64,000 bases of DNA from Brevibacterium antiquum (GTDB lineage: Bacteria > Actinomycetota > Actinomycetes > Actinomycetales > Brevibacteriaceae): positions 1 to 64,000 of the forward strand of contig NZ_JABASX010000014.1 of NCBI RefSeq assembly GCF_016107655.1. The letters are read 5' to 3'. Of this stretch, positions 23,271-60,708 are shown in pieces. Numbering within the stretch: position 1 is the stretch's first letter; every line of letters starts with the position of its first letter. The notes beneath the pieces were generated by a model that ran no database searches, was not told the DNA's origin, and saw only the letters and a program-made list of their open reading frames with translations. The position numbers and the translations under genes are program-made.

Positions 23271-23326
23271 AGTCCCTACCCCTATCTATGCGCCGATTTT
23301 CGGTGCAGTTGACAAGGGTAGGGACT
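23271..23326 (-). terminator. Inverted repeat at the downstream end of the last module gene
   Basis: Arms AGTCCCTACCC and GGGTAGGGACT (11 bp, perfect) flank a 34-nt loop that itself contains the small hairpin CCGA-TTT-TCGG and a promoter-like GCATAGATA. It begins 14 bp after the stop of the gene at 23340. The long loop makes a simple terminator uncertain; a protein-binding or end-marking site is possible. Confidence 0.5.
23283..23310 (-). promoter_or_regulatory. Module promoter element copy 1
   Basis: Minus strand: AACTGC, then GCATAGATA 19 nt after the first A. It reads leftward into noncoding DNA. See the entry at 43410-43438 for the consensus. Confidence 0.5.
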
Positions 23327-23339
23327 GGTCCGGTGTTCC

Positions 23340-23831
23340 TCAGCCGTTATTCTCCATCACGTTGAGGATCTTCTTGCTGGCCAGAGCGCGGATGACCTCC
23401 AGCTCATTGTCGGCTTCGATGATCTCAACGTTGCCCGTAGGTCGTGGAGTATCGGTGTTTGGCGAGAACTGAGTGCTGGCGACGATGAGCGGGATCTCCT
23501 CGTGCTTCCAGTCGATGATTCCGAAGTCATCCTTGAAACGGGAGAGCAGAATCTCTTCGTCGCGCTGTTCCAGATGCTTCTGACCGTTCTCGGCAAGGTA
23601 GCCGCCGTAGATGAGTTCGGTGACGACCGGAATGACCGAGTCCTCGATCAGGGAGATGCGAGCTTTGAGAGCCTCGGTGTCATCGAGGTTGGAATAGCCG
23701 TCGATGACGAAGTCGAGGACCTCGGAGGCAGTATCGCACCCGTGGTACTCGTTCTCATTGGTTTCCTTGTCGCGGGTGATGACGACGAAGGGAAGTGCGG
23801 TCAGGTCGGTGTCGTTGTCAATGATCGTCAT
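23340..23831 (-). CDS. Acidic protein of unknown function
   Basis: A 163-residue acidic protein starting at ATG 23831, with AAGGA 7-8 nt upstream. No family was recognised. It has a beta-rich start (DLTALPFVVITRDKETNE), a helical middle and a C-terminus NVEIIEADNELEVIRALASKKI. It is the last gene of the leftward module and has its own promoter copy (23866-23894), located across the stop codon of the preceding gene, so its level can be set separately from the long surface-protein gene. Confidence 0.7.
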   Translation of the reverse strand: MTIIDNDTDLTALPFVVITRDKETNENEYHGCDTASEVLDFVIDGYSNLDDTEALKARISLIEDSVIPVVTELIYGGYLAENGQKHLEQRDEEILLSRFKDDFGIIDWKHEEIPLIVASTQFSPNTDTPRPTGNVEIIEADNELEVIRALASKKILNVMENNG

Positions 23832-23865
23832 GGTGTGTCCTTCTGAGTTGAGATTGCGTTCACTA

Positions 23866-23894
23866 GGTCTATGCCCCATCACCCGATGTTTGTC
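23866..23894 (-). promoter_or_regulatory. Module promoter element copy 2
   Basis: Minus strand: GACAAA, then GCATAGACC 20 nt after the first G. The TAG inside GCATAG is the stop codon of the upstream gene (23869-23871). It drives the gene starting at 23831 with a leader of about 30 nt. Confidence 0.7.
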
Positions 23895-26205
23895 CGCTGC
23901 TCTTGGCACTCCCCTGACTCGAGCTGCTTGGCTTCGACGACTTCGCCGCTGCTGGAGCCTTGGGAGCGGCGGTGGACTGACCGGATTTCGCCTTTGGTGC
24001 GGGCGAGTTCTCGGCAGTCGAGCCACTGCCTGATTTCGCCGAAGCGGATGGAACTGATGACGGGGAGTGAAGCGACTTCGGGTTCGAGGCGCGTTTCGTC
24101 GTCACGTTACTCGACTTCTTCGGAGTATTGGCAGCTGGTGATTTCGCTACCGGTGTCTTCGGTGTGGCGGGAGAACTCGCCGGCCTCTTCACCGCTTTCG
24201 TCGGAGTCTTGGCGACAGCCTTCTTTGGAGCCTCAGCCGTCGGCGCCGGTGCAACCTTCTTCTTATCGGGCTGCGTGTCGACAGATTTCGGTGCAGGTTC
24301 AGACTTCGACTTCTTGGCTGGCTGAGTCTCGGCGACCTTCGGCGCGACCGACTTCTTCTTCGACGAGCTGCCATCCTTGGAATCGTCCTTCTTCGGCTCC
24401 GTGTTCTTCTTCGCTGGCTGAGTGTCGGCAGTCTTCGGGGCTCCGTATTCTTCGGTCGGAGCAGTGGCCATGCCGTTGGGCGCCTCATCACTACTGTCAT
24501 CAGGCTTCTGCGACTCACCTTCATCAGTCGATTCAGGATCCTCGATAGTCCCGTGGGCCATATCGTCAGATACCTTCTCTGACTCCTTGTCAGCATCGTC
24601 ATCCGAGGTCTTGTCGTCGGTCGTGGATTCGTCCGATTCATCTTCGTCGACCGGCGCGATCGCCATATCGTCCGAGACCTTCACTATGGAATCGGGTCCC
24701 GATTTTTCGTCCTCGTCTGTAGCGTCTGGTTCCTTGGAATCATCAGCTTCGTCAGAATCGGTCTCGTCATCTGGTTTCGCATCCGCGAGCTCGGCGTTCT
24801 TGCCCTTGTCAGATGGGTCGCTGGCGTGCGCTTTGCCGTCCTCACCGATGGTGATGGTGACCTTTCCTTCAGCCTCGTCGTTCTGGCCCGAGCGGTTTTT
24901 GTCCTCGTCCTGGGTGTGGCGGACCTTGTAGGTGAACGTCACTTCTTCGCCTGGCTCATATTCTGAGGCGTCGAAGGTGATCTCACCGGAATTGGCATCC
25001 CAGGTCAGGCCCTTGACATCATCGCCGGTGACTTCGGTTACTTCACCGTCGAGTACCCTGTCGTTTTTCGTCAGGTCATCAAACTTCAGCTTCACCGACG
25101 ATCCCGCGTCGACGCTGTAGTGGTCATCGTCTGCCTCTGGTGGCTTGAGGCGGTACTCGGTGATCGTCATGGTCGACTTCTCACCATCGCCGACACCGTA
25201 GAGAGTCAGATCGTCGGCATTCGGGTAGTTCTTGAGGAACTCACGCTTCTGCGCGAAGTCCATCTCCGACCACACTCCAACTGGTGTGCCATCGGCATCG
25301 GTGACCACAATGTCTTTGGACTCGTGCTTCTCATACAAGTCAGCATCGGGGTCCTCGGTTGAGAACTTGTCCGGTGTCGTGAATGGTGAGTCGTCACGCT
25401 TGTCATTGATGAAATCAACGAGGTCCGCGACGTCGACGGGCCCATGCCCGTCATCACCGCCACCGTCGTCTCCTTCATCACCGTCTCCTGGATTGTCCGA
25501 TCCGTCGCCATCGTCGCCTCCCCCGTCATTTCCTCCGCCGTCGCCGGGGCCAGGATCTTCGCCGTCAGAGCCGTCTCCGCCTCCTGGATTATCCGACCCA
25601 TCGCCGGGTTCGTCGTTTCCGTTGCCGGGTTCATCGTCAGATCCGCCATCGCCGGGAGTGTCGTCACCAGCGTCTGAGTCGGATCCATCATTGTCGCCGG
25701 GGGCGGCTGAATCGTTGTCGTCACCGGGCAGCTGTGAGACGTCGTCGGGATCTTCGGTCGACTCGCTCTTATCGTCAGCTGAGTTCTTTCCCTCATGCTC
25801 TGACTTATCGTCCTCGCCCTCATCGGATTTCGGCCCGACTGGATCTGGAAGCTCCGGCAAACCTGCGTCGGTGTCCGGCAAGGCATAGTTCTGCTGACCA
25901 GGCTCGTCATCACCGTGTTCGGGTCCGTACTGGCCATAGTCACCGTCGTCACGGTCAGGCAGCCCCGATGTGTCGCTGGGATCGTGTGGAGCCGCCTCAT
26001 GGTCTTCGTCATCGTTCGATGGGCTGTCAGAAGGTTCGTCGTCGGCGTTGATCGTGTATTTCGGCTTGTAATCGCCCTTATCCGAGTGCGCCTGATCATC
26101 GTTGACTTGCTCGCTGATGGCGTATCCACCGGCGAGCACGACAGCCAGACTGGCAGCAGCAGCTGCACCCAGAACGGCTTTGCGTTTCCTGTTGTTCTCT
26201 TTCAC
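23869..26205 (-). CDS. Large membrane-anchored, low-complexity surface protein
   Basis: 778 residues. A basic start (MKENNRKRKAVLG) and one hydrophobic helix (about residues 11-30) form an uncleaved anchor or signal. Residues 35-265 are Asp/Glu/Gly/Pro/Ser-rich, with many GDDGGG- and DNPGDG-type runs. Residues about 270-480 are globular and include an Ig/cadherin-like beta domain (VDAGSSVKLKFDDLTKND, EPGEEVTFTYKVRH). An acidic stretch follows, and the last 200 residues are Lys/Pro/Ala/Ser-rich with repeats of the type DTQPAKK. The charge thus switches from strongly acidic to strongly basic. No LPXTG motif is present. It overlaps the FtsK-type gene by 4 bp. Its place in a transfer operon suggests a cell-surface adhesin, a wall-spanning stalk or a mating-pair factor. 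Confidence 0.75.
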   Translation of the reverse strand: MKENNRKRKAVLGAAAAASLAVVLAGGYAISEQVNDDQAHSDKGDYKPKYTINADDEPSDSPSNDDEDHEAAPHDPSDTSGLPDRDDGDYGQYGPEHGDDEPGQQNYALPDTDAGLPELPDPVGPKSDEGEDDKSEHEGKNSADDKSESTEDPDDVSQLPGDDNDSAAPGDNDGSDSDAGDDTPGDGGSDDEPGNGNDEPGDGSDNPGGGDGSDGEDPGPGDGGGNDGGGDDGDGSDNPGDGDEGDDGGGDDGHGPVDVADLVDFINDKRDDSPFTTPDKFSTEDPDADLYEKHESKDIVVTDADGTPVGVWSEMDFAQKREFLKNYPNADDLTLYGVGDGEKSTMTITEYRLKPPEADDDHYSVDAGSSVKLKFDDLTKNDRVLDGEVTEVTGDDVKGLTWDANSGEITFDASEYEPGEEVTFTYKVRHTQDEDKNRSGQNDEAEGKVTITIGEDGKAHASDPSDKGKNAELADAKPDDETDSDEADDSKEPDATDEDEKSGPDSIVKVSDDMAIAPVDEDESDESTTDDKTSDDDADKESEKVSDDMAHGTIEDPESTDEGESQKPDDSSDEAPNGMATAPTEEYGAPKTADTQPAKKNTEPKKDDSKDGSSSKKKSVAPKVAETQPAKKSKSEPAPKSVDTQPDKKKVAPAPTAEAPKKAVAKTPTKAVKRPASSPATPKTPVAKSPAANTPKKSSNVTTKRASNPKSLHSPSSVPSASAKSGSGSTAENSPAPKAKSGQSTAAPKAPAAAKSSKPSSSSQGSAKSSGQTSGDGA

Positions 26206-27941
26206 TGGTTTTCTCCGCTCATTTCGTCAGCGTCGCTTTTGCGCACTGACAGCCTCTTCTGCTTGTTCGCGTATTCGAAAGGTGACATCTTCTCCCCTGT
26301 CTCAGGGTCGATCATGGCCTCGGCCTCTATCTTTTTGCGGCGCTTGGCAGTCTCGTCCCCGTCGTCGGCCGGACCCGAGGTGGGGACAAACTGTTCCATC
26401 GTGGCCCGTGTCGGTCTCTGCCCCTCGAATACAGGCACCCGACATTTCTTGAGAAAGTCCTCGAGCTCTTGCGTTGAGGCATAGTAGGGCTTGAACACAC
26501 ACGCCTCGTCCCCCTCGTTGGCAGCCGTTCCCACACCCTTGCCCACCTTGGCGTTGGACCGGATGTGCTCGGGCACCCTCGGCACCGCGGCGGGGTCGGG
26601 AAAGACCAGCTTTCGGTTCCCCTCGGTGGGATTGACACCGAGGAGGATCTTGTTCTGGTGGTTGGTCCTCAGTGCCGTACCGATTCCGGTATCGGTCGAC
26701 GCAACCTGGGAAGACAGGACGAGCTTGATGCCGACGAACCTCATCTCGGCAGCCGTCTTCGAGTATTTGAGCTTCAGGATTTCCTTGGCCGTATTCGTGT
26801 CTTGAGCCTCAATCCGCATCGGATGCTCCTTGTCGAGACCCTTTGGCACCGTCTCCAAAGCCCACAATCCGGTGACCTCATCCATGATGAGGAAAATCGG
26901 ACGCATTTTGGCAGCCTCTGGCGCATCAGCAGGAAGCTGGGTCCAGTTCTGCACTCCGTACCGTTTGAGCACCTTCGCCCTCGTGTCGCCCTCGGCGTAG
27001 ATCTTCGACATGACGGCGGCGGCCTCGTGGATCGATTCGCACCCCCACCCTTCGGGACGGACATACTGTTTGCACCACTCGAAGTCGACGGCTTTAGCCG
27101 GAGTATCGATGATGGCCAGCTCTGCTCCTCTAGCGAGGACTCCGGTGACGATGTCATTGAGGAAGACCGATTTGCCACTGTTCGACGTGCCGCCAACCTG
27201 AGAATTCATCCCCGACTCAAAATCGATGATGAAGGTTTCCCCGTGCTTCTCCCCCGGTGCTGGCAGGCGCTCTCCCAGCGGGATCTTCGCCCACTCTTTC
27301 GACCCTGGCACGAATGCAGTGACCTTGGCATCAGTGGGATACGGGATGAGCTGGGAGAACGTGGGTGGATCCGAGGGGATGATCGAGGCCTCGAGACTTC
27401 GCGGATCTATGCGAGTGAACCAGCCGGGCCCGCCGACGATGTCCGTGGCAACTTCTTCAAGCTTCTCGTCGTGCTTGGAAGGTGTATACGAGTCTGGCAG
27501 CTCCAGGTCGTATCCGCCATCAGATCGGGTGGTGATGACGATGGACCAGGGCTGGACGCCAAGGGCGTTGGCGACAGCGCCTCGGGCTCGCTTGGTGGCC
27601 TTGTCGAACTTCTGCATGGTGGCTCGACCGGGCTTGAGGAATGGTTCGAACTTCGTCAGGTAGTAGCCGGGCTTCATCTTTTCGAATCGAGCAGCGATGG
27701 CAGGGGCATCAGACATCTTTGTGCCATTGGCCAATTCGAGGACGACTGTCTCGCCCTCATCGTTCATCGACGTCATAGAGGTGTGGCGGACGGCCACGAG
27801 GCGCCATCGTTGCTTGTCGATGTGACTGATCGACCAATCGCTGCCGAGCTCTTCTTTGACCTTGCGTTCCATGATGGCCGCGTGCTTGGCCGGGTCGAAC
27901 TTAGCGGGGAGCTTGAGTTCCTTCGTGTTGGGGTTGCTCAC
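26202..27941 (-). CDS. FtsK/HerA-type DNA-pump ATPase
   Basis: A 579-residue protein without obvious membrane helices. Walker A is GTSNSGKS (about residue 250) and Walker B PIFLIMDEVTGL (about residue 347), followed by an SSQVAST sensor segment (FVGIKLVLSSQVAST) as in FtsK, SpoIIIE and coupling ATPases. The N-terminal ~230 residues contain beta-rich segments of unknown role. It starts at GTG 27941 about 30 nt after promoter copy 3. It is cotranscribed with the surface protein downstream (4-bp overlap). The likely role is as a soluble ATPase that moves DNA or protein to the transfer channel. It is one of three FtsK-like ATPases in this module. Confidence 0.8.
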   Translation of the reverse strand: MSNPNTKELKLPAKFDPAKHAAIMERKVKEELGSDWSISHIDKQRWRLVAVRHTSMTSMNDEGETVVLELANGTKMSDAPAIAARFEKMKPGYYLTKFEPFLKPGRATMQKFDKATKRARGAVANALGVQPWSIVITTRSDGGYDLELPDSYTPSKHDEKLEEVATDIVGGPGWFTRIDPRSLEASIIPSDPPTFSQLIPYPTDAKVTAFVPGSKEWAKIPLGERLPAPGEKHGETFIIDFESGMNSQVGGTSNSGKSVFLNDIVTGVLARGAELAIIDTPAKAVDFEWCKQYVRPEGWGCESIHEAAAVMSKIYAEGDTRAKVLKRYGVQNWTQLPADAPEAAKMRPIFLIMDEVTGLWALETVPKGLDKEHPMRIEAQDTNTAKEILKLKYSKTAAEMRFVGIKLVLSSQVASTDTGIGTALRTNHQNKILLGVNPTEGNRKLVFPDPAAVPRVPEHIRSNAKVGKGVGTAANEGDEACVFKPYYASTQELEDFLKKCRVPVFEGQRPTRATMEQFVPTSGPADDGDETAKRRKKIEAEAMIDPETGEKMSPFEYANKQKRLSVRKSDADEMSGENQ

Positions 27942-27973
27942 TGGCCTACCTTCAGAGTTGTTGTTCCTTTATG

Positions 27974-28001
27974 TATCTATGCGCAAAGTTGCGTCTCAGT
28001 T
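27974..28001 (-). promoter_or_regulatory. Module promoter element copy 3
   Basis: Minus strand: AACTGA, then GCATAGATA 19 nt after the first A. The TAG inside GCATAG is the stop codon of the preceding gene (27977-27979). It drives the FtsK-type gene starting at 27941. Confidence 0.7.
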
Positions 28002-29239
28002 GGCCCTTCTTCTTCTCCAATGACCTCGGCGAAGGTTTTCGAGAGGTTGTCACGGTGGTAAGCCTCTTCCCAGATGTCGATGAGGACTCCGGTGACGTCC
28101 TCGACGCTCTCGCCCAGTGGCTGCGATGCGAAGCCGATCGCCTGCTGGCACAGCCCTTTGAATTCCCCGGCCTGAATCTGGCGTTTCGCGCGGATGTCTT
28201 CGTCATCATTGATCGAGTTCCACAGCGGCGAATGCCTGGAGGCGGGTTCGCACTCTTTGGCCAAGAATGAAGAGAACAGGTCATTCGACAGCTTCTTCCA
28301 CTCTTTCGAGTGGCCGCCTTGGACCATGGCAGCGAGGTTGGACTGCATCGTCTTCACTGCCGCTTTGGCCGGGATGAGCAACTGCATGACTGCTGCCTCG
28401 GCAACAACGGCAATATGTTTGACGCCGGCCGATGTCAGCAAACGCTTAACATCTGTGAAACTCAGGTCGTCCCACAGCGCCAACAGATCGTCTCCGATGT
28501 CGTCGGGTATTTCGCGGCCCTGGATAAGGTCGTAGAAGGCCAGCAGTGACCGGTGTGCCAGTTTCGGCTCTTCACGAAGTCGAGTCAGGATCGACAAACG
28601 CTCGGTTGCATCCGTGGGTCGAACCAACGGTGGAAGGTGGAGTTTGCGGTGAAGGAACTGGGCGCAAACGTAGATGCGCTCTTCACGCGAGCGGTAGCGC
28701 TTGAGGAAACGTTCGCTCTGATCGGCGAATTCTTCGAATACATCGGCCTCGGGTTCGAGACTCTTCATCGCCTCCACTTCAACTTTGGGGGTTGAAGTGA
28801 ACATCGGTTCCGGCTCCTGGTTGTCCGCGAAGTACTCTCCGACAGACTCGACCGGGCAGTTGCGATCCTGGGCAATTCGGTGCTTCTTCTCCAACGCGGG
28901 CTTGGCAGAGAGCATCATGCCAAATACCCAGCTAGAGAATTTGCGGCCGTCGGCCTTGTTGAAGTCGTAGAAGACAGCGTCGTTGAGCAGCTTGTCGAGC
29001 ACCAAGTCTCGACCGGAGTCAGCGAGGTCAACCATGTCTTGGGTCGACCGAGCGCGGAAGTGGTAGCTGATTTGAGCACCAAGGTCGGAGCTCACGAAGA
29101 TTTCAGCAACCTGCCGGCGACCTGCGTCTTCGGAAAGATTGCCCGAAAGCACGGCCTGTCCAATGGCGGAGATTTCCGCGTCCGCCTGAGTGCGGCTGAG
29201 CTTTCGTCCGGGAGGCTGCGTAGCTGTCTTTGTCGTCAT
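27977..29239 (-). CDS. Unknown protein with a sigma-region-2-like segment
   Basis: A 420-residue mostly helical protein; ATG 29239 has AAAGAG just upstream, with a further in-frame GTG at 29263. Residues about 85-125 read VFYDFNKADGRKFSSWVFGMMLSA. This resembles sigma-70 region 2, whose consensus places F-D-x-x-x-G-x-x-F-x-x-W before a DNA-contacting helix. No region 4 helix-turn-helix is evident and the remaining 290 residues match nothing I know. It could be a sigma-related regulator or an unrelated helical protein. It sits between the VirB4 operon terminator and the FtsK-type gene, with the symmetric ACTCT-N4-AGAGT directly before its ATG. Confidence 0.5.
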   Translation of the reverse strand: MTTKTATQPPGRKLSRTQADAEISAIGQAVLSGNLSEDAGRRQVAEIFVSSDLGAQISYHFRARSTQDMVDLADSGRDLVLDKLLNDAVFYDFNKADGRKFSSWVFGMMLSAKPALEKKHRIAQDRNCPVESVGEYFADNQEPEPMFTSTPKVEVEAMKSLEPEADVFEEFADQSERFLKRYRSREERIYVCAQFLHRKLHLPPLVRPTDATERLSILTRLREEPKLAHRSLLAFYDLIQGREIPDDIGDDLLALWDDLSFTDVKRLLTSAGVKHIAVVAEAAVMQLLIPAKAAVKTMQSNLAAMVQGGHSKEWKKLSNDLFSSFLAKECEPASRHSPLWNSINDDEDIRAKRQIQAGEFKGLCQQAIGFASQPLGESVEDVTGVLIDIWEEAYHRDNLSKTFAEVIGEEEGPTETQLCA

Positions 29240-29253
29240 ACTCTTTATAGAGT
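29240..29253 (-). promoter_or_regulatory. Small palindrome directly upstream of the start at 29239
   Basis: The 14-bp sequence ACTCT-ATAA-AGAGT is a 5-bp inverted repeat that doubles as a TATAAA-like box and a ribosome-binding site. This gene lacks a copy of the module promoter element, so a separate control point here is plausible. Confidence 0.35.
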
Positions 29254-29334
29254 CCGCTGACAATCGTGGCTACTCAGACCCCAACGACCCTGCATATCAG
29301 CAGGTCAAAGACCTATATCTCCCCTGCCAGTGCG

Positions 29335-29376: not shown

Positions 29377-29380
29377 TCGC

Positions 29381-34516: not shown

Positions 34517-34542
34517 GAGTCTCTCCTCGTCGTCGCGTCTAG

Positions 34543-35688: not shown

Positions 35689-35988
35689 CTACAGTCCTTG
35701 CTGTCGTCGCATGTAGGTGCGCTCGGCGGCTTTGGCGACGCCGGGGTCGTGGTCAGTCATCAGGAAGTCGATGGTGCTGTCAGGTGTGTCAGCGTCGGCG
35801 GCCAGAGCGGTGCGCACGAGTCCGAAAGGGTGTTGAGTCAGGCGCTCAAGGCAGGTGTCACAGTAGGCAGCACCGTCGTCAGTCTTGCGGAAACACGGTT
35901 TCCAACATTTGCGGCATTCGCCGGGCAAGTGGTGGGCGTGTTGATCCGGTACGACTTCGAACGGTCGCCAGCTGTGACACCTGGACAT
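35689..35988 (-). CDS. Small CxxC zinc-finger-like protein
   Basis: 99 residues. The N-terminal half has ECRKCWKPCF and YCDTCLERL, two CxxC pairs about 16 residues apart, suggesting a zinc ribbon. The C-terminal half (FGLVRTALAADADTPDSTIDFLMTDHDPGVAKAAERT) resembles one short helical repeat of the kind that starts with a pair of helices, each about 18 residues long. It starts 6 nt after the stop of the preceding gene, inside the VirB4 operon. Function unknown; a nucleic-acid or protein adaptor is possible. Confidence 0.65.
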   Translation of the reverse strand: MSRCHSWRPFEVVPDQHAHHLPGECRKCWKPCFRKTDDGAAYCDTCLERLTQHPFGLVRTALAADADTPDSTIDFLMTDHDPGVAKAAERTYMRRQQGL

Positions 35989-36672: not shown

Positions 36673-36701
36673 TATCTATGCGCAAAGACCGCCGATGAGT
36701 C
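36673..36701 (-). promoter_or_regulatory. Module promoter element copy 4
   Basis: Minus strand: GACTCA, then GCATAGATA 20 nt after the first G. The -35-like half lies in the loop and right arm of the terminator hairpin at 36684-36727, so the two elements share bases. It drives the VirB4 operon. Confidence 0.75.
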
Positions 36702-39035: not shown

Positions 39036-39064
39036 TGTATATGCCCCAACCCACCCGATGTGTC
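39036..39064 (-). promoter_or_regulatory. Module promoter element copy 5
   Basis: Minus strand: GACACA, then GCATATACA 20 nt after the first G. TATACA is separated from the GTG start (39031) by 4 nt, so transcription should begin at or next to the start codon. Confidence 0.75.
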
Positions 39065-43409: not shown

Positions 43410-43438
43410 CATCTATGCGCCGTCTCAGGTGATGTGTC
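43410..43438 (-). promoter_or_regulatory. Module promoter element copy 6 (consensus described here)
   Basis: Minus strand: GACACA, then GCATAGATG 20 nt after the first G. Nine copies in the module share a GACWCA-like box (variants GACTGA, GACAAA, AACTGA, AACTGC) and GCATAGA (one GCATATA), with 19 or 20 nt between the first bases. All face in the direction of transcription. Here TAGATG ends 4 nt before the ATG. Confidence 0.75.
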
Positions 43439-44160: not shown

Positions 44161-44275
44161 TGTGTGCCTCCCCCGGTCGACGAAATTAGCTTGCCAGAAT
44201 CACTGACCATCCCGAAAGCACTCTCCCATGTTGTAGTTGTTCGACACACCCAATCCCTTGACGCATAGAGAGGGT
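44161..44275. promoter_or_regulatory. Divergent intergenic region before the ParA-like operon
   Basis: 115 bp between two divergent starts. It contains promoter copy 7 on the plus strand. The minus-strand promoter for the gene at 44160 is not obvious. Confidence 0.5.
44243..44271 (+). promoter_or_regulatory. Module promoter element copy 7
   Basis: Plus strand: GACACA, then GCATAGAGA 20 nt after the first G. TAGAGA is separated from the GTG at 44276 by GGGT, so the mRNA is probably leaderless. It is the only copy on the plus strand and it drives the only rightward operon of the module. Confidence 0.75.
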
Positions 44276-46783
44276 GTGAGTAAAACAACGCGAATCGGTA
44301 TTGCTAACCTGCCCGGCCTCGAAGATGTTCTTGCCGAAGCAGGCTACCACGTGATCTCTGGACAGAGATTCCGCGATGCTGCCTTGAACATCAAGAAGGC
44401 CATGTCGAGCCAAGCCCCTCCTAGCGTCGTCCTCGTTGGCGACTTCAACCAGGTCGGGCTCAAGGCTTGGGCGGAAAAACTCTCGAAGGAAACAACCCTC
44501 CGCGCGATCTCCACCGCTACGGGTGGTGCCTTTGCCAATCACCCAACCGTGGACACGATTTCCGCGCCCACTGATGTGTGGGACGTTCTCGACTCATTGG
44601 GAATCGAGACTCCCAACTCGCCGTCGCCTGTGATTGATTCTAACGGCATCGCCCAGGTAGTCGAAGTAGGCACGTCGACATCAATGCAGCCGATGAACGG
44701 GGCATCTGCACTTGGTGGCAATCCTCTCCATATGTCACACGGAGGTGTGTCGGATGAGGAGCCGCCCCAGAACGAATCGGCATCCTCCACGGACAAAGCC
44801 TCACCACAAGATTCAGGTCTTCAGTCCGTCGTCGACCCGTGGTCCAACCCATCGGCCTCCACGACTCAGGCTGAGGACCGACAGCGTCCCACACCTGAAC
44901 CGGCATCCGCAGTTCATGCCGGACCAGACCCATGGGGACGTAACGAGCCGATGGCCCACGACTCTCCAGAATCTTCGCCTTCATCAGTCCAGCAATCCAG
45001 TTCTGAACCACCCATGGTTCAGCCGTCCTCCCAGCTCAGACAGGGCGGACCACTCGATTCGGGACAGCACGTAGACCGGTCGGCGGCCCAGTCCGGGCCG
45101 CCTTGGGACGCTCCTGAATCACACGTCGACCCAACGCCGCCGCAGGCGCAGGCTGGTCAGCCGGCCCAGAGTCAGACCACACCAAGTCCTGCCATGGACC
45201 AGTACCCGTCCCAGCAGAACCGTCCCGAGCCGACTCAGCCATCCGGACAGGAACCGCCATCGAGGAGTAACCCCGTGAGGTACGACGACTACCAGGCACC
45301 ACCTCCCCCGCAGCAGCCACCTCAAGTGACGAATAGCTACGATCACAACCCACCAACCCAGCCGATGCCACAGATGCCAGGGGGCCAACACGGCCACCCT
45401 CGCAACGAACATCCACCGGTTGAAGCCCAGCCACAGCCGGTGGCTTACCAACAGGCACCAGCTCAGCACTATCAGCAGCCGAGCCCTCCGGCCCCACCTC
45501 AGCAGGCATATGAGCCTGCCATGCCTCATGCGGGTGGCCAGTGGTGGCCGGGTACAGCTCAGCAGACATCCCCAGTTCAGCCGACGGGCCAATGGGCGAC
45601 ACCGGCACCCCCGGTCGAGGCGCCCACTCCGACACAACAGCCCTCGTGGGCAGCACAGCCGTCGGCCCCAAGCTCATCCCGGATGCCCAATCAGTGGTCG
45701 AGCAACGAGGCCTATCAGGCACATGCTCAAGGTTTCGATCAGTTCGGCGATGTCTTCGACCAGGCGATCGCTGACTACGCACCCGACTATTCCCCCAGCA
45801 GAACGCCGTTCTCTGACGCCTTCGCCTCAGTGCTCGTCATCGGTGCAGGCAAAGGCGGTGTCGGTAAGACCTCAATTTCTATCGCTACCGCCCAGCGTGC
45901 GGCTCTGGCTGGGTACAGGGTCATCCTCATTGATTCGAATCGTGGTCAGCCCGGAACAGGCATCCGCCTCCGATTGAAAAAGTCGAGTCTGCCCACCATC
46001 GCCGACGCCGCTCTCTCAGGAAACATGGCCGATGCACTCGTCACGCCGAAACAGATCAATCAGGTGCGAAGCGGAGCCAATCTCGAAGAGATCAAGTTCG
46101 GTGTTATCCAAGCCCCGCCTCCATCTCAGGCGTCGAAGCGTTTGGTCACGAACGAGCTCTACGCCAAAGCCATTGCATTCGCCAAGCAGAAGGCAGATCT
46201 AGTCATCATCGACACTCAGATCGCTGAGGCGATGGCCGCCGCCGAAGACACTGTCTATCGAGAGGTGCTCGTGCCCACGCTCAGGGCCAATGATCCCAAC
46301 TCACCGACAGCGATGCTCATGCTCACCGAACACGGCAGGGAGTCCTACAACCATCTTGGCGATCGAGTTCTCGAACTCAATAAGGCCGGTGTTCAGCGCA
46401 ACCGAGTCATGATGCTCCTCAACGCTGCTCCACCTGAACAGCCGGTGACGAATCTCAAACAGGTGGGATTTGATGACTACGGAGAATGGGTCGGCGTCAT
46501 TGACTATGACCCGCGCCTCAAGCAGACCTTCAACTCCGGCCGTACTGGCGCCGAGCTCGACGGCCTGTCCTCCGTAATCGACCACCTCCTCTTCCGAGTC
46601 ACAAACGATAATGAGGCCTTCCCGTCGACTCCCGCTGGTGGCTTGGGCGCCAAACACGTGGCCGCGGCGCAAACGAGACGCGGCAACCGTGAGCGCGAAG
46701 CACAGAAGAAGAGGTCGAGCCAAAAAGGATTCTTCCCCCAGCTCTTCGCCCGACTGTTCTCACGAGGCCGCACCAATGACTGA
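44276..46783 (+). CDS. ParA/MinD/TadZ-like ATPase with a long proline-rich linker
   Basis: 835 residues from GTG 44276; an in-frame TTG lies 39 bp upstream, but it would begin inside the promoter. Residues 1-110 look like a degenerate receiver-type alpha/beta domain (IGIANLPGLEDVLAEAGYHVISG, PPSVVLVGDFNQ), as at the N-terminus of TadZ/CpaE. Residues about 120-500 are Pro/Gln/Ser-rich and disordered. The C-terminal domain has the deviant Walker A IGAGKGGVGKTS (about 521-531), a DSNRGQPG segment and LVIIDTQIAEA. It ends with a basic tail. Such proteins place DNA or secretion machines at cell poles. It heads a five-gene operon with the sigma-like protein and could partition the element or localise the conjugation apparatus. 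Confidence 0.82.
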   Translation: MSKTTRIGIANLPGLEDVLAEAGYHVISGQRFRDAALNIKKAMSSQAPPSVVLVGDFNQVGLKAWAEKLSKETTLRAISTATGGAFANHPTVDTISAPTDVWDVLDSLGIETPNSPSPVIDSNGIAQVVEVGTSTSMQPMNGASALGGNPLHMSHGGVSDEEPPQNESASSTDKASPQDSGLQSVVDPWSNPSASTTQAEDRQRPTPEPASAVHAGPDPWGRNEPMAHDSPESSPSSVQQSSSEPPMVQPSSQLRQGGPLDSGQHVDRSAAQSGPPWDAPESHVDPTPPQAQAGQPAQSQTTPSPAMDQYPSQQNRPEPTQPSGQEPPSRSNPVRYDDYQAPPPPQQPPQVTNSYDHNPPTQPMPQMPGGQHGHPRNEHPPVEAQPQPVAYQQAPAQHYQQPSPPAPPQQAYEPAMPHAGGQWWPGTAQQTSPVQPTGQWATPAPPVEAPTPTQQPSWAAQPSAPSSSRMPNQWSSNEAYQAHAQGFDQFGDVFDQAIADYAPDYSPSRTPFSDAFASVLVIGAGKGGVGKTSISIATAQRAALAGYRVILIDSNRGQPGTGIRLRLKKSSLPTIADAALSGNMADALVTPKQINQVRSGANLEEIKFGVIQAPPPSQASKRLVTNELYAKAIAFAKQKADLVIIDTQIAEAMAAAEDTVYREVLVPTLRANDPNSPTAMLMLTEHGRESYNHLGDRVLELNKAGVQRNRVMMLLNAAPPEQPVTNLKQVGFDDYGEWVGVIDYDPRLKQTFNSGRTGAELDGLSSVIDHLLFRVTNDNEAFPSTPAGGLGAKHVAAAQTRRGNREREAQKKRSSQKGFFPQLFARLFSRGRTND

Positions 46784-47867
46784 TCCCGCGATCTCGGCGA
46801 CCCACGACGACTTTGCCACTGAGGGCGGTGAACGAGCCCACCGATGGATCCGCCGTATCACCAGCTACATCGAGGCAATTGTTCACTCCAAAGATGCCCG
46901 GATGATCCCCCTTGAGACGCTGGAATCCGAGGTCGCCCTCGTCACCTTGCCAGTTTGGCTCTGGGCCGAGGCCGACCCGAAGATCGTTGGCCGCAAAGCC
47001 ACCTTCATGTCCGGTGAGACCACCCGGCCGTTACTGCCCGTCCGCGTGCAGTGGGAGGGCGGCAGTGTTCAGGCACTGAGCGAAGGATGCCACCATCTGG
47101 GATGGACTGTTACCGGAATGGGCAAACGTCAAAGCGGAAATACGGCCGTAACTGTTGATTCTAATCAATTTCAACAACATGTTCCGTACGGAGATGAACC
47201 CGGAGCGGAATCAAGGTTAATTACACAGTTGCCATTTACAATTAAACAATCACTAATAACTCCGGGAGCCAGCCTTCAAGCTTTGCAGACGATCGAGAAA
47301 ATGGCCCAACAGTCATGGTGGAATTTTCTCAGCGCAATCGAGCGGACTTTGCGTGAGTGCCTTGAAAGGCAGCACGTCTCACTCATGCGCGACATCGATA
47401 AGACGGTGACGAAGCTCGGGCCGCAAGACTTCGGCCAACCGTTACTCGACTCCGAAACCCTCGACTCCATGGCCACCGAGATGACCCTGGGGGCAGAGGG
47501 CGATCCTGACCAATCGTATCTGTCTGAGCTCATCGACAAGTGCTGCAAGCCGGAGAGGTTCGCCAAGGTTGACCCCCAGAGGTATCTCTACGTTGAGATC
47601 TCACGAACAGCTGGCGCCGCCGTCCAGAAGCGAGTCGGCGATCCCGCGATCGGACGCAAGATCCGAAAGGTCTACGCCGAAAGCGGTGAGGTCGATCCCG
47701 AGAAGGTCATCGCGCTCTACCGCAAGGAGTACCCGAAAGACGGGCTGTCCTATAAGCGTCTGACCGACGCCCTCAATGTCATTCGAGACCCGATGGCTGA
47801 GGCGGTCCGAGTCGATTTCCAATCGTTGGACATCGACTACAACGGTCAATCCTGGTATTTGGTGTAG
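46776..47867 (+). CDS. Unknown operon protein with an AT-rich coding island
   Basis: 363 residues from ATG 46776, overlapping the ParA-like stop by 8 bp, with GAGG 8-9 nt upstream. No family recognised. The first 110 residues are beta-rich (VALVTLPVWLWAEADPK, LLPVRVQWEGGSVQAL) and the rest helical, with a possible DNA-binding end (KDGLSYKRLTDALNVIRD). Codons for about 45 residues (about 47,140-47,275) are AT-rich at third positions and include TTA and ATA, unlike both flanks. It is translationally coupled to the ParA-like gene, so a partner role in partition or replication is possible. Confidence 0.65.
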   Translation: MTDPAISATHDDFATEGGERAHRWIRRITSYIEAIVHSKDARMIPLETLESEVALVTLPVWLWAEADPKIVGRKATFMSGETTRPLLPVRVQWEGGSVQALSEGCHHLGWTVTGMGKRQSGNTAVTVDSNQFQQHVPYGDEPGAESRLITQLPFTIKQSLITPGASLQALQTIEKMAQQSWWNFLSAIERTLRECLERQHVSLMRDIDKTVTKLGPQDFGQPLLDSETLDSMATEMTLGAEGDPDQSYLSELIDKCCKPERFAKVDPQRYLYVEISRTAGAAVQKRVGDPAIGRKIRKVYAESGEVDPEKVIALYRKEYPKDGLSYKRLTDALNVIRDPMAEAVRVDFQSLDIDYNGQSWYLV

Positions 47868-47895: not shown

Positions 47896-48366
47896 ATGGA
47901 ACCGTCATCAAATAGTATTCCCATTAATGCGTTGAATAATGCCTCACCCGGCAATCTCATTGCACCACAAACAGCAACGGAGCTTTCACGTTCAGCGCGA
48001 CAAAATCGAGCGGAATGGTTGGTGTCCGTTGCCGAAGGCCTTTTGGGCGTCAATGACGTTCTCACCAGCGTTGGTGGAAACGGTGAAGGGAGGATGCTCG
48101 GAGCTATCTCGCTGAGGCAGCTCCTACTCGCGTCTGACGAGCACCGGTCACAGGCACGAGTGAACAGATTGATCGAACGGCTGAAGGAAATCTCAGACTC
48201 CAGCGATACCCCCACGCGCAAGATCACGTTGGCGTGGTTGTTCGACCCTCGCAGTCAAGGTAAGAGACTCATGGCCTACTGCGATGCCCTTCGCGAGAAC
48301 CGTCAGGAATCCCCCTGGCCGGGCTTCCCCTTTTCTGAGAATACGGCAGGAGATTCACATGAGTGA
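47896..48366 (+). CDS. Small helical protein, possible regulator
   Basis: 156 residues from ATG 47896, 28 bp after the previous stop, with a weak GGGGGCG ribosome-binding site. The sequence is mainly helical and Arg/Leu-rich (RSARQNRAEWLVSVAEGLLGVND, ISLRQLLLASDEHRSQARVNRLIERL, ARKITLAWLFDPRSQGKRL-like segment), compatible with a DNA-binding or anti-sigma-type protein, but nothing is recognised. The first 30 codons are AT-rich. It overlaps the sigma-like gene by 8 bp, a common arrangement for a sigma factor and its partner. Confidence 0.6.
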   Translation: MEPSSNSIPINALNNASPGNLIAPQTATELSRSARQNRAEWLVSVAEGLLGVNDVLTSVGGNGEGRMLGAISLRQLLLASDEHRSQARVNRLIERLKEISDSSDTPTRKITLAWLFDPRSQGKRLMAYCDALRENRQESPWPGFPFSENTAGDSHE

Positions 48367-49216
48367 CGAAGACGATCCGATCAAAGGGGTGATCTCGTCC
48401 ATCGTCTCACTCGATGACGACGCACGAACCGTCGCCATCGAGGACTACTCTCGTTCCGCACGAGAGACCTACCGGCAGATCGCATTCCATCTGTGCCGGA
48501 CGAACAATTTGCCACCGAACCGACACTTGGATGACCTCATCCAAATCGTGGCCACCAGAGACTACGAACTCATCCTCAAGGCAGTTGAGGACCCAACGAT
48601 TTTCGACCGCATCAACCGGTGGACCGGGTATCTGCGCAACGAGTCGCGCAACGCTGTGAAGACCTACAAAGACACGACAGCCGGCGAAGCTCCCATGTCA
48701 GGGATGACCACACTCAATCGTCGTCGCAGGCTCTTGGCTTCCATGCGGCAATCACTGGCTACTGACGGCTTTGAGAATGCCACCGACATTGAGGTCGTTG
48801 ACGCGACGAACGAGCATCTTCGCAAGACACAGAAGAACCCCGAGAAGAGCGGCCTGATCTGCTCTGTCGATGACTTCTATCTCACCGTCTCACCGCTCGA
48901 AGTCGTACCTGATGTCTCAACTTCGGGAGATCTAGATTCGGTCATACACTCCACCGAGGGCGCATTCATCGTGGCCAAGGCCATCGAGGAGGCCACCACG
49001 GAGTCGGAGACCTTCGGCGTTGTCCTCGACTGCTACTTCGGTGAGCTCTTCGGCGACGGCGCAACCGGCCAGATCCCCCAAACAGCCGATGTGGCCGAGA
49101 TGACTGGATTGACGAGTCGAGATTGCTCCCGACTCAAACGCAACGGGCTGACCATGATGCAACGTCTCATGCGCGACCATTACGGCATCACCAGCGAAGA
49201 CTGGATCGCCTCATGA
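48359..49216 (+). CDS. Sigma-70-like protein, candidate reader of the module promoters
   Basis: 285 residues from ATG 48359, with AGGAG 7 nt upstream. Residues about 40-105 resemble sigma region 2 (DDLIQIVATRDYELILKAV, then RINRWTGYLRNESRNAVKTYKD). About 115-165 resemble region 3 (LNRRRRLLASMRQSLATDGFEN-type helix, then IEVVDATNEHLRK). Residues about 235-275 contain a region 4-like helix-turn-helix (TADVAEMTGLTSRDCSRLKR, NGLTMMQRLM). The similarity is at the level of pattern and spacing, so this is an inference. Its operon is driven by promoter copy 7, which would make a positive loop. A phage-type activator is the alternative. Confidence 0.55.
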   Translation: MSDEDDPIKGVISSIVSLDDDARTVAIEDYSRSARETYRQIAFHLCRTNNLPPNRHLDDLIQIVATRDYELILKAVEDPTIFDRINRWTGYLRNESRNAVKTYKDTTAGEAPMSGMTTLNRRRRLLASMRQSLATDGFENATDIEVVDATNEHLRKTQKNPEKSGLICSVDDFYLTVSPLEVVPDVSTSGDLDSVIHSTEGAFIVAKAIEEATTESETFGVVLDCYFGELFGDGATGQIPQTADVAEMTGLTSRDCSRLKRNGLTMMQRLMRDHYGITSEDWIAS

Positions 49217-50167: not shown

Positions 50168-50201
50168 ACCTCAATCGTAAGTTCGCCCCCTGACGTGAGG
50201 C

Positions 50202-51032: not shown

Positions 51033-51055
51033 GGGCGATCACAAATCCTTTCGTC

Positions 51056-56544: not shown

Positions 56545-56554
56545 GAGCGCCCCT

Positions 56555-56725
56555 TCAGATGAATGCGCGAACGATGGCGCCAGCAACAACCAGTGACAAG
56601 AAGATAATTGCTACCACCACACCGGTCGTCGACTGCCAGAACGAGTTAACCTCGCTGCGCTTGTTCGAACGGACATCCTCGAGCCACTTGGAAAAACGGC
56701 CCTTGTCCTCGTCGTCATCTGCCAT
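56555..56725 (-). CDS. Small single-pass membrane protein
   Basis: 56 residues: an acidic start MADDDEDKGRFSKWL, a basic segment VRSNKRSEVNS, then one hydrophobic helix (TGVVVAIIFLSLVVAGAIV) and a short RAFI end. GGACGACGAC precedes the ATG without a perfect ribosome-binding site. It is the first gene after promoter copy 8 and is followed by the NERD and giant FtsK genes. Small one-helix proteins of this type commonly act as subunits of secretion channels; here it may be part of the transfer complex. Confidence 0.75.
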   Translation of the reverse strand: MADDDEDKGRFSKWLEDVRSNKRSEVNSFWQSTTGVVVAIIFLSLVVAGAIVRAFI

Positions 56726-56761
56726 GTCGTCGTCCTTTGCTGATTGGAACTGTCTTCACTG

Positions 56762-56790
56762 TGTCTATGCCCCTTCGCCTCCGATGAGTC
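56762..56790 (-). promoter_or_regulatory. Module promoter element copy 8
   Basis: Minus strand: GACTCA, then GCATAGACA 20 nt after the first G. The TAG in GCATAG is the stop codon of the Replic_Relax-like gene (56765-56767). It drives the operon from 56725 through at least the giant FtsK gene. Confidence 0.75.
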
Positions 56791-58165
56791 GGCGGTGGGT
56801 AGCCCACTGTTTCGACGATGTCGCCCGCGGTGGCAGATTGTGTGTAATGGTGCGCAAGCGCGGTGGCGGCAGTGTCTTTCCGAAACGAGTCTCTCGACGT
56901 TCCGGACTCATCACCGGGTGGTCATCGAGGCCAGCCGCCGCAACTTCGGAGTCAACAATTTGGACTGGTTGTTTTCCTGCACGCAGCCAGGGCGGCGTCT
57001 GACGCAGTCCGGCAGCGTTGTCGATAACGGCCAATGGCGCAAACGTGGGCTTACGTAATGCCAGAGACTCGTCGAGAAGCATCGAGCATTCTTCATCTAG
57101 GCCATGTGCCTCTGTCGATGGGCGGTAGGCAATCATGTCGAGGAAGTCAGTCGACACTTCGCCAAGTGAGGGGAACCAATCCTGCCAGTCGGTGAAGAAC
57201 ATACGGTGTCGGGAACGAACCCGGCCGGAACCTGGATTCTGCGCCGTAGCCTTGCGCAATGCTCGTTTGACGGAGCTTCGAGAAACCTTCGAATGTGAGG
57301 ACATGTCCTGGGTCGGATTGGCGATGACAAAGCACACGACGACCCCGTTGGATTCATATGGATAGGCGTCAAAGTACTCGGCCCAGCGCCCTACTTTCGT
57401 CTCGAAAGAGTCGGGAGACATCGAAGCGGTCACCTCCATGACCACTCGCACACCATCGGGGCGAATGACGACCCCGTCACCACGACGACCAGACTCGATT
57501 GGCTCTCGTCCGACTCCGGAGCCGAAGAGTAGGTCAAAGGTCGAGAACTTCTCCCCCAGCATGGTGGCAATGTCGGTGTATTCGGCCAAGCGCAACATGA
57601 GCTCTGTTGAAAGGGTGTTGTGGCGGTCATAGAGGCCACCGGAAGTCCAGGACTGACCACCGGTGACCGACACCAGCTCTGGGTAGGTCAAGTATTGTGC
57701 GAAGTCACGGTCGAAGGTCATAGTGCGAGATGGTCGGTAGAGATGCCCCAGAGTTCCGGCACGGCCCGGTGCCAGGGCTGACGACACTCGCCCCATGTCG
57801 ATGAGACCGGACGCGAACATTCCTGGGACGAATGGTGAGGTGTGGTTGAGGTGAAATTTCGCTCCAGTCAGTGCCACCATCTGCTCAGCTGTGACAGTGC
57901 GAAAGGCATCCAGGGCCGACAAGAATGCCAACTTCAAGCCCCACTGGTTGGCGCTGGTCACTCGCGCCATCGCCTCCTCTTTTTCGATGTCGAGATACTT
58001 GGGCAAATTGACTAGACCCGCCTCGTGCTGTGACTTGGCCTCGGCGAATCTCGTCCACAGCCCCTGCGATCCATGGGTCCAGAGACCGTCGTAGAACGGG
58101 TCAATTCGGTCGTGTGCCGCAAACCCTGTGTCGGCAATAGGTGAGGATAGCGATGAGAACTTCAT
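56765..58165 (-). CDS. Replic_Relax-like protein (winged helix plus degenerate nuclease-like domain)
   Basis: 466 residues, overlapping the upstream ATPase gene by 4 bp. A predicted winged helix (SALDAFRTVTAEQMVALTGAKF, about residues 82-105) is followed by a region with GDGVVIRPDGVRVVMEVTAS. This has the spacing of PD-(D/E)XK cores (Asp, then E-x-T where E-x-K is usual) and resembles the replication-relaxation family of actinobacterial and firmicute mobile elements. Given the missing Lys, nuclease activity is doubtful; DNA binding is more likely. In the absence of a canonical relaxase, this is the best candidate for recognising the origin of transfer. Confidence 0.6.
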   Translation of the reverse strand: MKFSSLSSPIADTGFAAHDRIDPFYDGLWTHGSQGLWTRFAEAKSQHEAGLVNLPKYLDIEKEEAMARVTSANQWGLKLAFLSALDAFRTVTAEQMVALTGAKFHLNHTSPFVPGMFASGLIDMGRVSSALAPGRAGTLGHLYRPSRTMTFDRDFAQYLTYPELVSVTGGQSWTSGGLYDRHNTLSTELMLRLAEYTDIATMLGEKFSTFDLLFGSGVGREPIESGRRGDGVVIRPDGVRVVMEVTASMSPDSFETKVGRWAEYFDAYPYESNGVVVCFVIANPTQDMSSHSKVSRSSVKRALRKATAQNPGSGRVRSRHRMFFTDWQDWFPSLGEVSTDFLDMIAYRPSTEAHGLDEECSMLLDESLALRKPTFAPLAVIDNAAGLRQTPPWLRAGKQPVQIVDSEVAAAGLDDHPVMSPERRETRFGKTLPPPRLRTITHNLPPRATSSKQWATHRRLIGGEGA

Positions 58166-60675
58166 GCGACACCTTCTGCAACGGTCGGGAGCTGGTATCC
58201 CTGCCTGGCGGCAAAGGCACGGCGGTCGGCCTCGAAGTTCTCCACCGACAAGGTAAAGGCCGGCAGATCATTGACGTTCGTCGACGTTTTCACCGCTGCT
58301 GTGAAGTTGGGCAGACTCGTAATGTCACTGGCCCGCCAGTCCTCACCGTTGGGGTCGAGGATGCGCACCAGTTTGTCGATGATGTCCGGGTTGCGCTGTT
58401 TATAGGCGATGAGGGTCTTCATCGACAACAGCATGTCGGCGACCTCGCTCATCAGCTGAGTCTGACGCTGCGTGGCAAAGATCGTTCGCACACCGAATGA
58501 GCGCCCCTTGTCTTGGAACCACACGACCGGTTCAGCGGTGGATCCCGCCAGCAGTGAAAGCTCGTCGGCGTAGATCGAGACCCACTGCTTCAGTACTTCC
58601 CAGCCAGAACAGGTGCGTTCAATCTGGCGCTGCAATGTGTAGAGGGCCATCGACGACATCAGTTTTGTGTTCCGCTCGGCGACCTGTTCACCTGAGATCG
58701 ACTGACCGAAATTGAGCACGGTCGGACGGAAAGCAGTAACCACCTGTTGCCAGGTGACCTTGGATCTCTTAGGGGTGAACCACCCCTCCATCTCGGCCAA
58801 CTGCGACAACTTCGTCTGTGAGGACTCAAACATCTTCAACCGCTCAGACGGGGTCTTGGTGAACGGGTAGGAGCCGTACGTCATCGCTTCGACGATCGCG
58901 TCATTGTCGGGGTTGTCGCCAGCATAGGTTTTAATCGCGGCGTGCAGGCGTTTGGCGATCGCGTCCCCGCCTCCAGTCCCTCCCGAAAGGATGTAGGCAT
59001 AGTAAACAAATGAGCGGCCCGACTCGATGACCGGCTCCAAGGGCTCAAGGTTCTCATTGGCTGACTCGGTGATCTGTGGTGTGGATTCGACAGCGAGGGC
59101 GAGAGTAAAAATCTGGCCCAGAGATGTCCTGGCACGTGATTGGATGGCGCCGTCCTCGAAGGCATAGACCAGCGCATCAACGAACTCATTAGCCCGTGAG
59201 CTCATTGATCCGCCAGTGGCAGTGAAGTCGATGCCGAACGTGTTGACGTCAGCGACATCGATGAGAACGGCAGTCTGGCCGAGAGCAGCGGCCCAGTCGA
59301 GGTAGTGCTGGGCACCATCCGGGCCCTTGTTCTCGAAGGCGATGAGTGAGTTCTTCTCTCCGGGGAATCCGGGAAAACCGGACGGGCACTTTTGTTCAAG
59401 AATGTCGAAGCCGAACAGGGCCCTGGCCAACTGAGACTTGCCCGAGCCTCTCTCTCCGATGAGTGCGACTCCGTATTGAAGCTGGGAGGCGAAGAGGTGG
59501 GCAGAGTTCCCGTCATCTGGTGCGGTGCCGACAACCGGGCCGACACGGTCAAGCAGAGGCGGTGGCACGATGCGCATCTCGGTTTGCGACTGGCCCGACA
59601 ATGCCCCCGATGCTGGTGCCGCAATCGAGGTGAAAACGGAGGCTGCGGCCTTGAACGACCAATGGTCGAGCGGATAGTCGCCGCCAAATTCTTCACGCTT
59701 GATCGTCTTATCTGGGTTCAACGTCTCCTTCCTCGGGGGTCGGATTCGCCGGCCTCCCTTATTCGGTGCAGGAAAGATGCCTGCCGTCAGGTCCAGCCAC
59801 AGGCTGCGAGCCGAACTGGGCCAGCGATCGGAGAAGCGGAGATACCAGACGATGGCGCAGGCACCGAACATGGTTCCGAAAACCATGAAGATCATCGACG
59901 GGGTTAACCAACCTGACAGGGCCTCCCAGAAGTCGCCGTGCAAGCTGGTCACCTTCTCGCTGATCGCACCCCTGTAGCCGATTACTCCAAGACACAGCAG
60001 TGCAGCCACTTGCGGAATGAGCAGGCGTTTCGACGATTTCACTGGGCGAGGATGAGTATCGAGGTCGAGACCGACCATTGAACCAGCAACGTTGGTCAAG
60101 ATGGTGTTGGAATGGTCGTGGCTTTCGTGCGAACCGGCGAAAAGTGAGACGATCACAGCGTTGGTGTCCCGTGAGTGGTGCGAACCCGAACCATGGCCGG
60201 CGTTGAAATCCAACCACTTCGTCCAGCGTTTGTTCTCCCGCTTCGATGGACTCCGAAATGTCACCGCCGCCCATTCGCCAACCGACAGCGATGCAGCGAC
60301 CTGTCGTGCGAATTCGAGATGGTCGGCGCCCACCTGGGCGTAGCGGCCGATAGTCGTGTCATCATCGACTTCGAGCACTGAAATGTAAGAGTCCGCGAGA
60401 TTGTCAGACCACGATTCGTCGACAGTCTCGACCTTCGCACCAAGAGCCCTGGCCAGGGCTCCAGCCGCATGATGAGCGTTGAGCTCACCGTCTAGAACGA
60501 GATAAGAAGCGACACCGGCTTCCCTCTTCGTCACCATGAGAGCAGCTGAACCTTTTTCGGTAGCCACTCTGATCGCTGCCTGGGCGGACTGGTTGAACGT
60601 TGCCGGGTCCAGCCGTGCTTGGGTGGTGGGCACGAAGGTCCGCACATTGGTCTGAGATGAGTTGAAACTGTCCAT
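58162..60675 (-). CDS. Membrane-anchored coupling-type ATPase (T4CP/FtsK-like)
   Basis: About 837 residues. ATG 60675 lies 5 nt after TAGATA of promoter copy 9; another in-frame ATG at 60681 would start inside the box, so 60675 is preferred and the mRNA is probably leaderless. Residues 1-210 are cytoplasmic. Two membrane helices follow (about 220-245 and 265-285). The motor domain has Walker A GERGSGKS (about 407), Walker B VSIYADELSLL (about 702) and TIFATQRQTQL as the sensor segment. This matches VirD4/TcpA-type coupling proteins that bring DNA to the channel. It is the first gene of the leftward module, coupled to the Replic_Relax-like gene. Confidence 0.8.
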   Translation of the reverse strand: MDSFNSSQTNVRTFVPTTQARLDPATFNQSAQAAIRVATEKGSAALMVTKREAGVASYLVLDGELNAHHAAGALARALGAKVETVDESWSDNLADSYISVLEVDDDTTIGRYAQVGADHLEFARQVAASLSVGEWAAVTFRSPSKRENKRWTKWLDFNAGHGSGSHHSRDTNAVIVSLFAGSHESHDHSNTILTNVAGSMVGLDLDTHPRPVKSSKRLLIPQVAALLCLGVIGYRGAISEKVTSLHGDFWEALSGWLTPSMIFMVFGTMFGACAIVWYLRFSDRWPSSARSLWLDLTAGIFPAPNKGGRRIRPPRKETLNPDKTIKREEFGGDYPLDHWSFKAAASVFTSIAAPASGALSGQSQTEMRIVPPPLLDRVGPVVGTAPDDGNSAHLFASQLQYGVALIGERGSGKSQLARALFGFDILEQKCPSGFPGFPGEKNSLIAFENKGPDGAQHYLDWAAALGQTAVLIDVADVNTFGIDFTATGGSMSSRANEFVDALVYAFEDGAIQSRARTSLGQIFTLALAVESTPQITESANENLEPLEPVIESGRSFVYYAYILSGGTGGGDAIAKRLHAAIKTYAGDNPDNDAIVEAMTYGSYPFTKTPSERLKMFESSQTKLSQLAEMEGWFTPKRSKVTWQQVVTAFRPTVLNFGQSISGEQVAERNTKLMSSMALYTLQRQIERTCSGWEVLKQWVSIYADELSLLAGSTAEPVVWFQDKGRSFGVRTIFATQRQTQLMSEVADMLLSMKTLIAYKQRNPDIIDKLVRILDPNGEDWRASDITSLPNFTAAVKTSTNVNDLPAFTLSVENFEADRRAFAARQGYQLPTVAEGVA

Positions 60676-60680
60676 ACCCA

Positions 60681-60708
60681 TATCTATGCGCAGAAGACCA
60701 GGTCAGTC
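60681..60708 (-). promoter_or_regulatory. Module promoter element copy 9
   Basis: Minus strand: GACTGA, then GCATAGATA 19 nt after the first G. It sits at the right edge of the module and drives the coupling-type ATPase, whose ATG (60675) lies 5 nt after TAGATA. Confidence 0.75.

Follow-up and report, generated by a model that had tools for sequence, protein, structure and literature searches.

Nine bipartite sites in the stretch of DNA analysed here (the window, 64,000 nucleotides, contig C5 of a 4.25 Mb Brevibacterium genome) and three others close to the C11 contig end are likely to form a single promoter class. It would be recognised by a holoenzyme consisting of the host core RNA polymerase and a divergent sigma-70-family protein encoded by the mobile element itself (ORF 48359-49216). 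Transcription would begin some 13-14 nt downstream of the G in the GCATAGA box, and the sigma factor would jointly switch on genes for transfer, partition and replication. Because the operon encoding the factor begins with the same promoter (site 7), the factor would also amplify its own synthesis by positive feedback; a search of 44050-44400, around the start of this operon, showed no SigA-type promoter. The leaderless spacing, the three C11-end sites and the candidate sigma factor are additions to the preliminary description of this DNA.

Both contigs match Brevibacterium aurantiacum XU54 and hence contain blocks from the same type of mobile element: the window region at ~23.2-63.8 kb is 81-83% identical to that genome, and the region at 699.4-712.0 kb of C11 is ~84% identical to a different contig of it. 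The blocks, which are of the same kind and unjoined in the assembly, may belong to one element or to two. The element encodes a VirB4-like ATPase with intein-type domains, two FtsK-type ATPases, a PD-(D/E)XK nuclease and a ParA-like ATPase, and the C11 end encodes an element-type DNA polymerase III alpha subunit (dnaE) and an ssb-like protein. As to the inteins, the VirB4-like ORF 29381-34516 contains homing-endonuclease and Hint-type domains, and the homolog alignments of this ORF and of ORF 39140-43405 are interrupted around long inserts; because of these inserts both ORFs are probably intein carriers.

All nine sites of the preliminary description were found at their positions and in their orientation (Table 1). 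Their first boxes (GACTCA twice, GACACA three times, GACTGA, GACAAA, AACTGA and AACTGC) lie 19 or 20 nt upstream, exactly as listed there, and only site 7 is on the plus strand. Eight of the nine sites were said to lie directly before an operon, and this is the case; the exception is site 1, where no ORF of at least 70 aa begins within 120 nt. Site 1 is located ~50 bp inside the end of the homology to B. aurantiacum XU54, i.e. near the edge of the common block, and it may drive something beside the element, or an RNA.

Table 1. Promoter-like sites of the window and selected genes (G, position of the G of GCATAGA or GCATATA)
Feature	Coordinates	Strand	G	Boxes (-35/-10)	Start codon	Genes downstream or remarks
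Site 1	23283..23310	-	23291	AACTGC/GCATAGATA		weak copy, 14.2 bits leave-one-out; conserved in B. aurantiacum XU54
Site 2	23866..23894	-	23874	GACAAACA/GCATAGACC	43 nt away	ORF 23340-23831
Site 3	27974..28001	-	27982	AACTGA/GCATAGATA	41 nt away	FtsK-type ATPase ORF 26202-27941, then 23869-26205
Site 4	36673..36701	-	36681	GACTCATC/GCATAGATA	54 nt away	35995-36627, 35689-35988, 34543-35685, VirB4-like with intein-type domains 29381-34516, 27977-29263
Site 5	39036..39064	-	39044	GACACATC/GCATATACA	GTG at 39031, predicted leaderless	PD-(D/E)XK nuclease ORF 37310-39031, then 36744-37259
Site 6	43410..43438	-	43418	GACACATC/GCATAGATG	ATG at 43405, predicted leaderless	ORF 39140-43405
Site 7	44243..44271	+	44263	GACACACC/GCATAGAGA	GTG at 44276, predicted leaderless	first promoter of the parA-like/sigma operon
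Site 8	56762..56790	-	56770	GACTCATC/GCATAGACA	leadered (by inspection)	small ORF first, then NERD 55792-56589, FtsK/HAD protein 51056-55795, YdjM-like 50202-51032, 49433-50167
Site 9	60681..60708	-	60689	GACTGACC/GCATAGATA	ATG at 60675, predicted leaderless	ORF 58162-60675, then 56765-58165
ParA/CbiA-like ATPase	44276..46783	+				gene 1 of the sigma operon
Conserved protein, function unassigned	46776..47867	+				gene 2 of the sigma operon; neighbour kept in relatives
Conserved small protein	47896..48366	+				gene 3 of the sigma operon; neighbour kept in relatives
Divergent sigma-70-family factor, candidate motif reader	48359..49216	+				gene 4 (last) of the sigma operon; regions 2, 3 and 4 by fold
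Element protein once suspected by eye of sigma region 2	27977..29263	-				without fold-search support

The consensus of the sites consists of a -35 box GACACATC, with GACTGA and AACTGC as looser copies, and a -10 box SGCATAGAYA, the distance between the box starts being 20 (19) nt. They have the features of bacterial -35/-10 promoters: two boxes at fixed spacing, directional and upstream of genes. The SigA consensus combines a TTGACA-like -35 box with, in actinobacteria, a -10 box TANNNT. The element sites have GACACATC as their -35 box and CATAGA rather than TANNNT at the -10 position, in line with the statement in the preliminary description that the motif fits no SigA consensus.

When the G of GCATAGA is taken as position 0, a start codon is located at 13-14 nt in six of the 12 sites. 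These are sites 5, 6, 7 and 9, the site upstream of dnaE (ATG) and that of a small ORF at C11:699404 (ATG, position read from the sequence directly). At sites 2, 3 and 4 and at the ssb site the start codon is 41-99 nt downstream. Because start codons cluster at 13-14, this is the presumed transcription start, which would place the boxes at about -33 to -26 and -13 to -7. Transcription beginning on the start codon would yield leaderless mRNAs, and about half of the target genes are accordingly predicted to be read from such messages. The boxes are also better conserved than their surroundings. Comparison of 11 sites with B. aurantiacum XU54 showed that 110 of 110 bases of the -10 box and 83 of 88 of the -35 box are kept, against 88 of 110 (80%) in the spacer and 274 of 407 (67%) in the upstream DNA.

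A matrix scan for matches outside 23-61 kb, proposed as a check in the preliminary description, and pattern searches showed that the motif is confined to the element and not chromosome-wide; the matrix statistics refer to a 400 kb host sample and the whole-genome statements to pattern searches. The matrix was built from the nine window sites, which scored 13.4-26.6 bits leave-one-out. The 400 kb of host background were picked without regard to the motif; loci L008-L030 were dropped as background because they had been chosen for partial motif matches. The host sample contained no sites of at least 18 bits and three of at least 14 bits, compared to eight and nine, respectively, in the element part of the window (41.5 kb). 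Two sites of at least 18 bits are present on the C11 block, upstream of the element-type dnaE and the ssb-like gene. Three weaker window sites (23291, 23874 and 27982; 13-16 bits) are not outstanding by score alone, and each is conserved at the orthologous position in the second genome. The pattern GACNCATCN11SGCATAGAYA, searched over 4.25 Mb with at most two mismatches, gave five matches in the window, two near the C11 end (704591 and 700171) and one elsewhere, and the reversed pattern gave none at the same mismatch level. These results support the proposal that the conjugative module has its own transcription programme. The putative regulon is in fact broader than conjugation, as the parA-like/sigma operon, the element-type dnaE and the ssb-like gene share the predicted promoter. 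The third C11-end site (L031:19405, C11:699404, minus strand) scores 17.8 bits with an ATG at 14 nt, and the small ORF that it precedes resembles a membrane peptide (MGYDDNDEDCFDSCLSLFSPLIGPLIIIVLLF...).

The last gene of the operon that begins at site 7, ORF 48359-49216, encodes a protein of 285 aa that is unnamed by databases and for which Pfam gave nothing even at E 10. AlphaFold predicts an all-helical structure (mean pLDDT 73.7, pTM 0.42). When this model was searched with Foldseek, all 50 of the 50 best listed PDB matches were sigma factors (E 8.4e-4 to 0.09, best probability 1.00), and the overall fold is that of the sigma-70 family, with a low TM score (0.23) as would be expected if the domains are differently placed. 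Because global agreement is low (TM 0.23, pTM 0.42), the assignment leans on domain order and local similarity. Detection by sequence needed the whole family rather than the single window protein, and an alignment of 15 homologs was used as family profile. Sigma70_r3 (PF04539) was matched by eight of the 15 members (best E 1.2e-4) and the region 4 helix-turn-helix, Sigma70_r4_2 (PF08281), by five (best 8.8e-4); the region 4 family PF04545 was also matched (8.9e-3), beside generic HTH families. Sigma-70 region 2 is absent from the Pfam families listed for the 15 members; its support comes from the fold search, in which the matches span the whole chain. In hhalign the family profile was colinear with host SigA over regions 3-4 (E 4e-4), and a PDB sequence search with this profile gave nothing significant. 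Taken singly the fold and profile matches are modest; together, model and sequence comparisons make the identification of ORF 48359-49216 as a divergent sigma-70-family factor well supported. The presence of such a gene in the element, start codons at the expected start, and boxes that are kept while their flanks diverge all agree with the earlier view of the sites as -35/-10 boxes of a non-housekeeping holoenzyme.

The factor probably reads the private promoter, judging from the co-distribution of the two. Among 396 genomes of the order, close homologs of the gene were found in only three Brevibacterium genomes, the nearest carriers being B. aurantiacum XU54 and Brevibacterium sp. 239c, and among 39 relatives the motif, in exact or nearly exact form, was likewise confined to these three. 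The direct bearing on the inferred pairing comes from this Brevibacterium co-occurrence, i.e. three genomes of one lineage. Additional homologs were sought class-wide, with a single weak match, and among IMG/VR viral contigs, with no match, so that nothing points to a phage origin.

The same four-gene operon contains distant homologs (~16-27% identity) in Oerskovia enterophila, genome G289 and a third genus (G238, G315 and G367). Others are encoded by plasmids of 375-608 kb from Pseudarthrobacter, Arthrobacter, Paenarthrobacter and Curtobacterium and, wherever the annotation lets one check, belong to the same operon. In Oerskovia the raw counts of GCATAGG are about those expected from base composition, and the motif is informative only when combined with a start codon at 14 nt: GCATAGG-N7-ATG has 15 matches in 4.7 Mb, all 15 on contigs C3 and C40, and the reversed pattern has none. 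GCATAG(A/G) is located at the same distance before annotated starts on the Arthrobacter plasmid and on pACHL01, among them the starts of the nuclease, of the parA-like operon and of the large ORF that follows the sigma gene; in Curtobacterium it is found ahead of dnaE. The pACHL01 -35 box, CACCCGTC, is at offset -20 to -13, where Brevibacterium has GACACATC; the -35 boxes of Oerskovia and Curtobacterium are less clear. The operon of the third genus starts with GCATATA...ATG and that of G289 with CCATAGG...GTG. Since the pairing of sigma gene and motif recurs on very large related plasmids, the element appears to run its own genes partly independently of the host.

The sites might instead be promoters read by another sigma factor, either a chromosomal ECF or alternative factor or host SigA aided by an element activator that binds GACACATC, the sigma-like protein then being that activator or otherwise employed. 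The genome does have eight recognisable sigma-70 region 2 genes (SigA and seven others), none of them within the element blocks, and the A at -11 is compatible with many sigma-70 -10 boxes. However, a chromosomal alternative factor should have some sites of at least 18 bits in the 400 kb of host DNA, where there were none; the motif and the same element gene recur in genera with different chromosomes; and homologs of the element protein have sigma regions 3 and 4. We consider this reading unlikely. Very unlikely, in our judgement, is that the sites serve as operators for a repressor or for another DNA-binding protein, e.g. a ParB-type partition protein, and stand next to start codons by chance: partition sites are to be expected in the element because a ParA-like ATPase heads the site 7 operon, but the sites are directional and lack symmetry, their two boxes have promoter spacing, and their position is locked to the start codon. 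That the element protein 27977-29263 is the sigma factor is the least probable reading and was rejected, as its resemblance to region 2 by eye and one weak Foldseek match to sigma-E region 2 (5or5, E 2.6, probability 0.57) stand against the lack of any significant fold match, of any Pfam match and of a recognisable region 4.

The preferred candidate, ORF 48359-49216, resembles the group 3 factors FliA and WhiG in having regions 2 (by fold), 3 and 4 in ~285 aa and, in its putative promoter, a G/C-led -10 box. The FliA/WhiG promoter is TAAA-N15-GCCGATAA, unlike the Brevibacterium GACACATC/GCATAGA, and the family profile gave a weak match to FliA region 3 (1rp3, E 0.8). Membership of group 3 was rejected, as the motif differs and there is no significant sequence match. 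Plasmid sigma factors with their own regulons are already known: SigN (ZpdN) of the Bacillus subtilis plasmid pBS32 has its own consensus, a plasmid regulon and a self-activating promoter, and is switched on through LexA (PMC6751061). Like SigN, the candidate is an element-borne sigma-70-family protein with an element regulon and its own operon under the same promoter, both predicted here. Unlike SigN, it belongs to another phylum, is associated with another promoter, lies below Pfam detection in a parA-like operon and has many predicted leaderless target genes. Because sequence and promoter differ, we do not file it with SigN, FliA or WhiG. BreLI, a Brevibacterium integrative and conjugative element, has dnaE, ssb, helicase and transfer genes; its reported terminal repeat of 12 bp, AGAAGTCCCAGT, lies at the 3' end of nrdF, and the main text never uses the word sigma (PMC6579920). 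The present element shares with BreLI the genus, dnaE, an ssb-like gene and transfer genes; the repeat AGAAGTCCCAGT was not found in the window or the loci examined, which cover only part of the element ends. In the literature searched, mostly outside subscription journals, no earlier description of the motif, of these plasmids or of an actinobacterial conjugation sigma factor was found. What is new is a putative sigma lineage annotated as hypothetical or HTH protein, with a predicted, about half leaderless regulon of transfer, partition and replication genes, in several Micrococcales genera.

If this interpretation is correct, the core genes of the conjugative element and its megaplasmid relatives would be independent of host promoter recognition, by means of a sigma factor that such elements bring along and that standard annotation misses. 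Private, often leaderless promoters would then be a way to cross genera without retuning promoters. The motif alone would predict operon starts and true start codons, providing a handle on a plasmid group with mostly hypothetical genes, and loss of one gene would shut down the whole core.

A second leaderless class was observed on pACHL01 (189 kb; L122, L123, L119 and L124): its sites read CC-G(C/T)ACACAT, 30 of 74 of them are followed by the start codon at 15 nt, and a GG.GA box is present near -22. It was not found in the Brevibacterium and Oerskovia element stretches examined. This class (GCACACAT) goes with a plasmid-borne SigA-like sigma factor, ACHL_RS23625, relatives of which are encoded by other plasmids of the family in Micrococcaceae. 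Like the candidate, ACHL_RS23625 is megaplasmid-borne in the same plasmid family; unlike it, it is recognisably SigA-type and associated with GCACACAT. Its best match in the Brevibacterium and Oerskovia genomes is a host SigA-type gene outside the element contigs. A wider picture, for and against which we see about equal grounds, is that very large plasmids and integrated elements of Micrococcales would have partly private expression, with the divergent sigma factor reading the GCATAG(A/G) promoters of the transfer, partition and replication core, the second, SigA-like factor reading GCACACAT in Micrococcaceae, and some of the plasmids carrying ~40 tRNA genes, tmRNA and SecYEG. Arrays of ~40 tRNA genes with a tmRNA-like gene are present on pACHL01 (L122:27520-36918) and on Curtobacterium pS16 (L121:22653-34707), one on each, and the annotated genes of pACHL01 also include secY, secE, secG, dnaE, ssb and nrdE.
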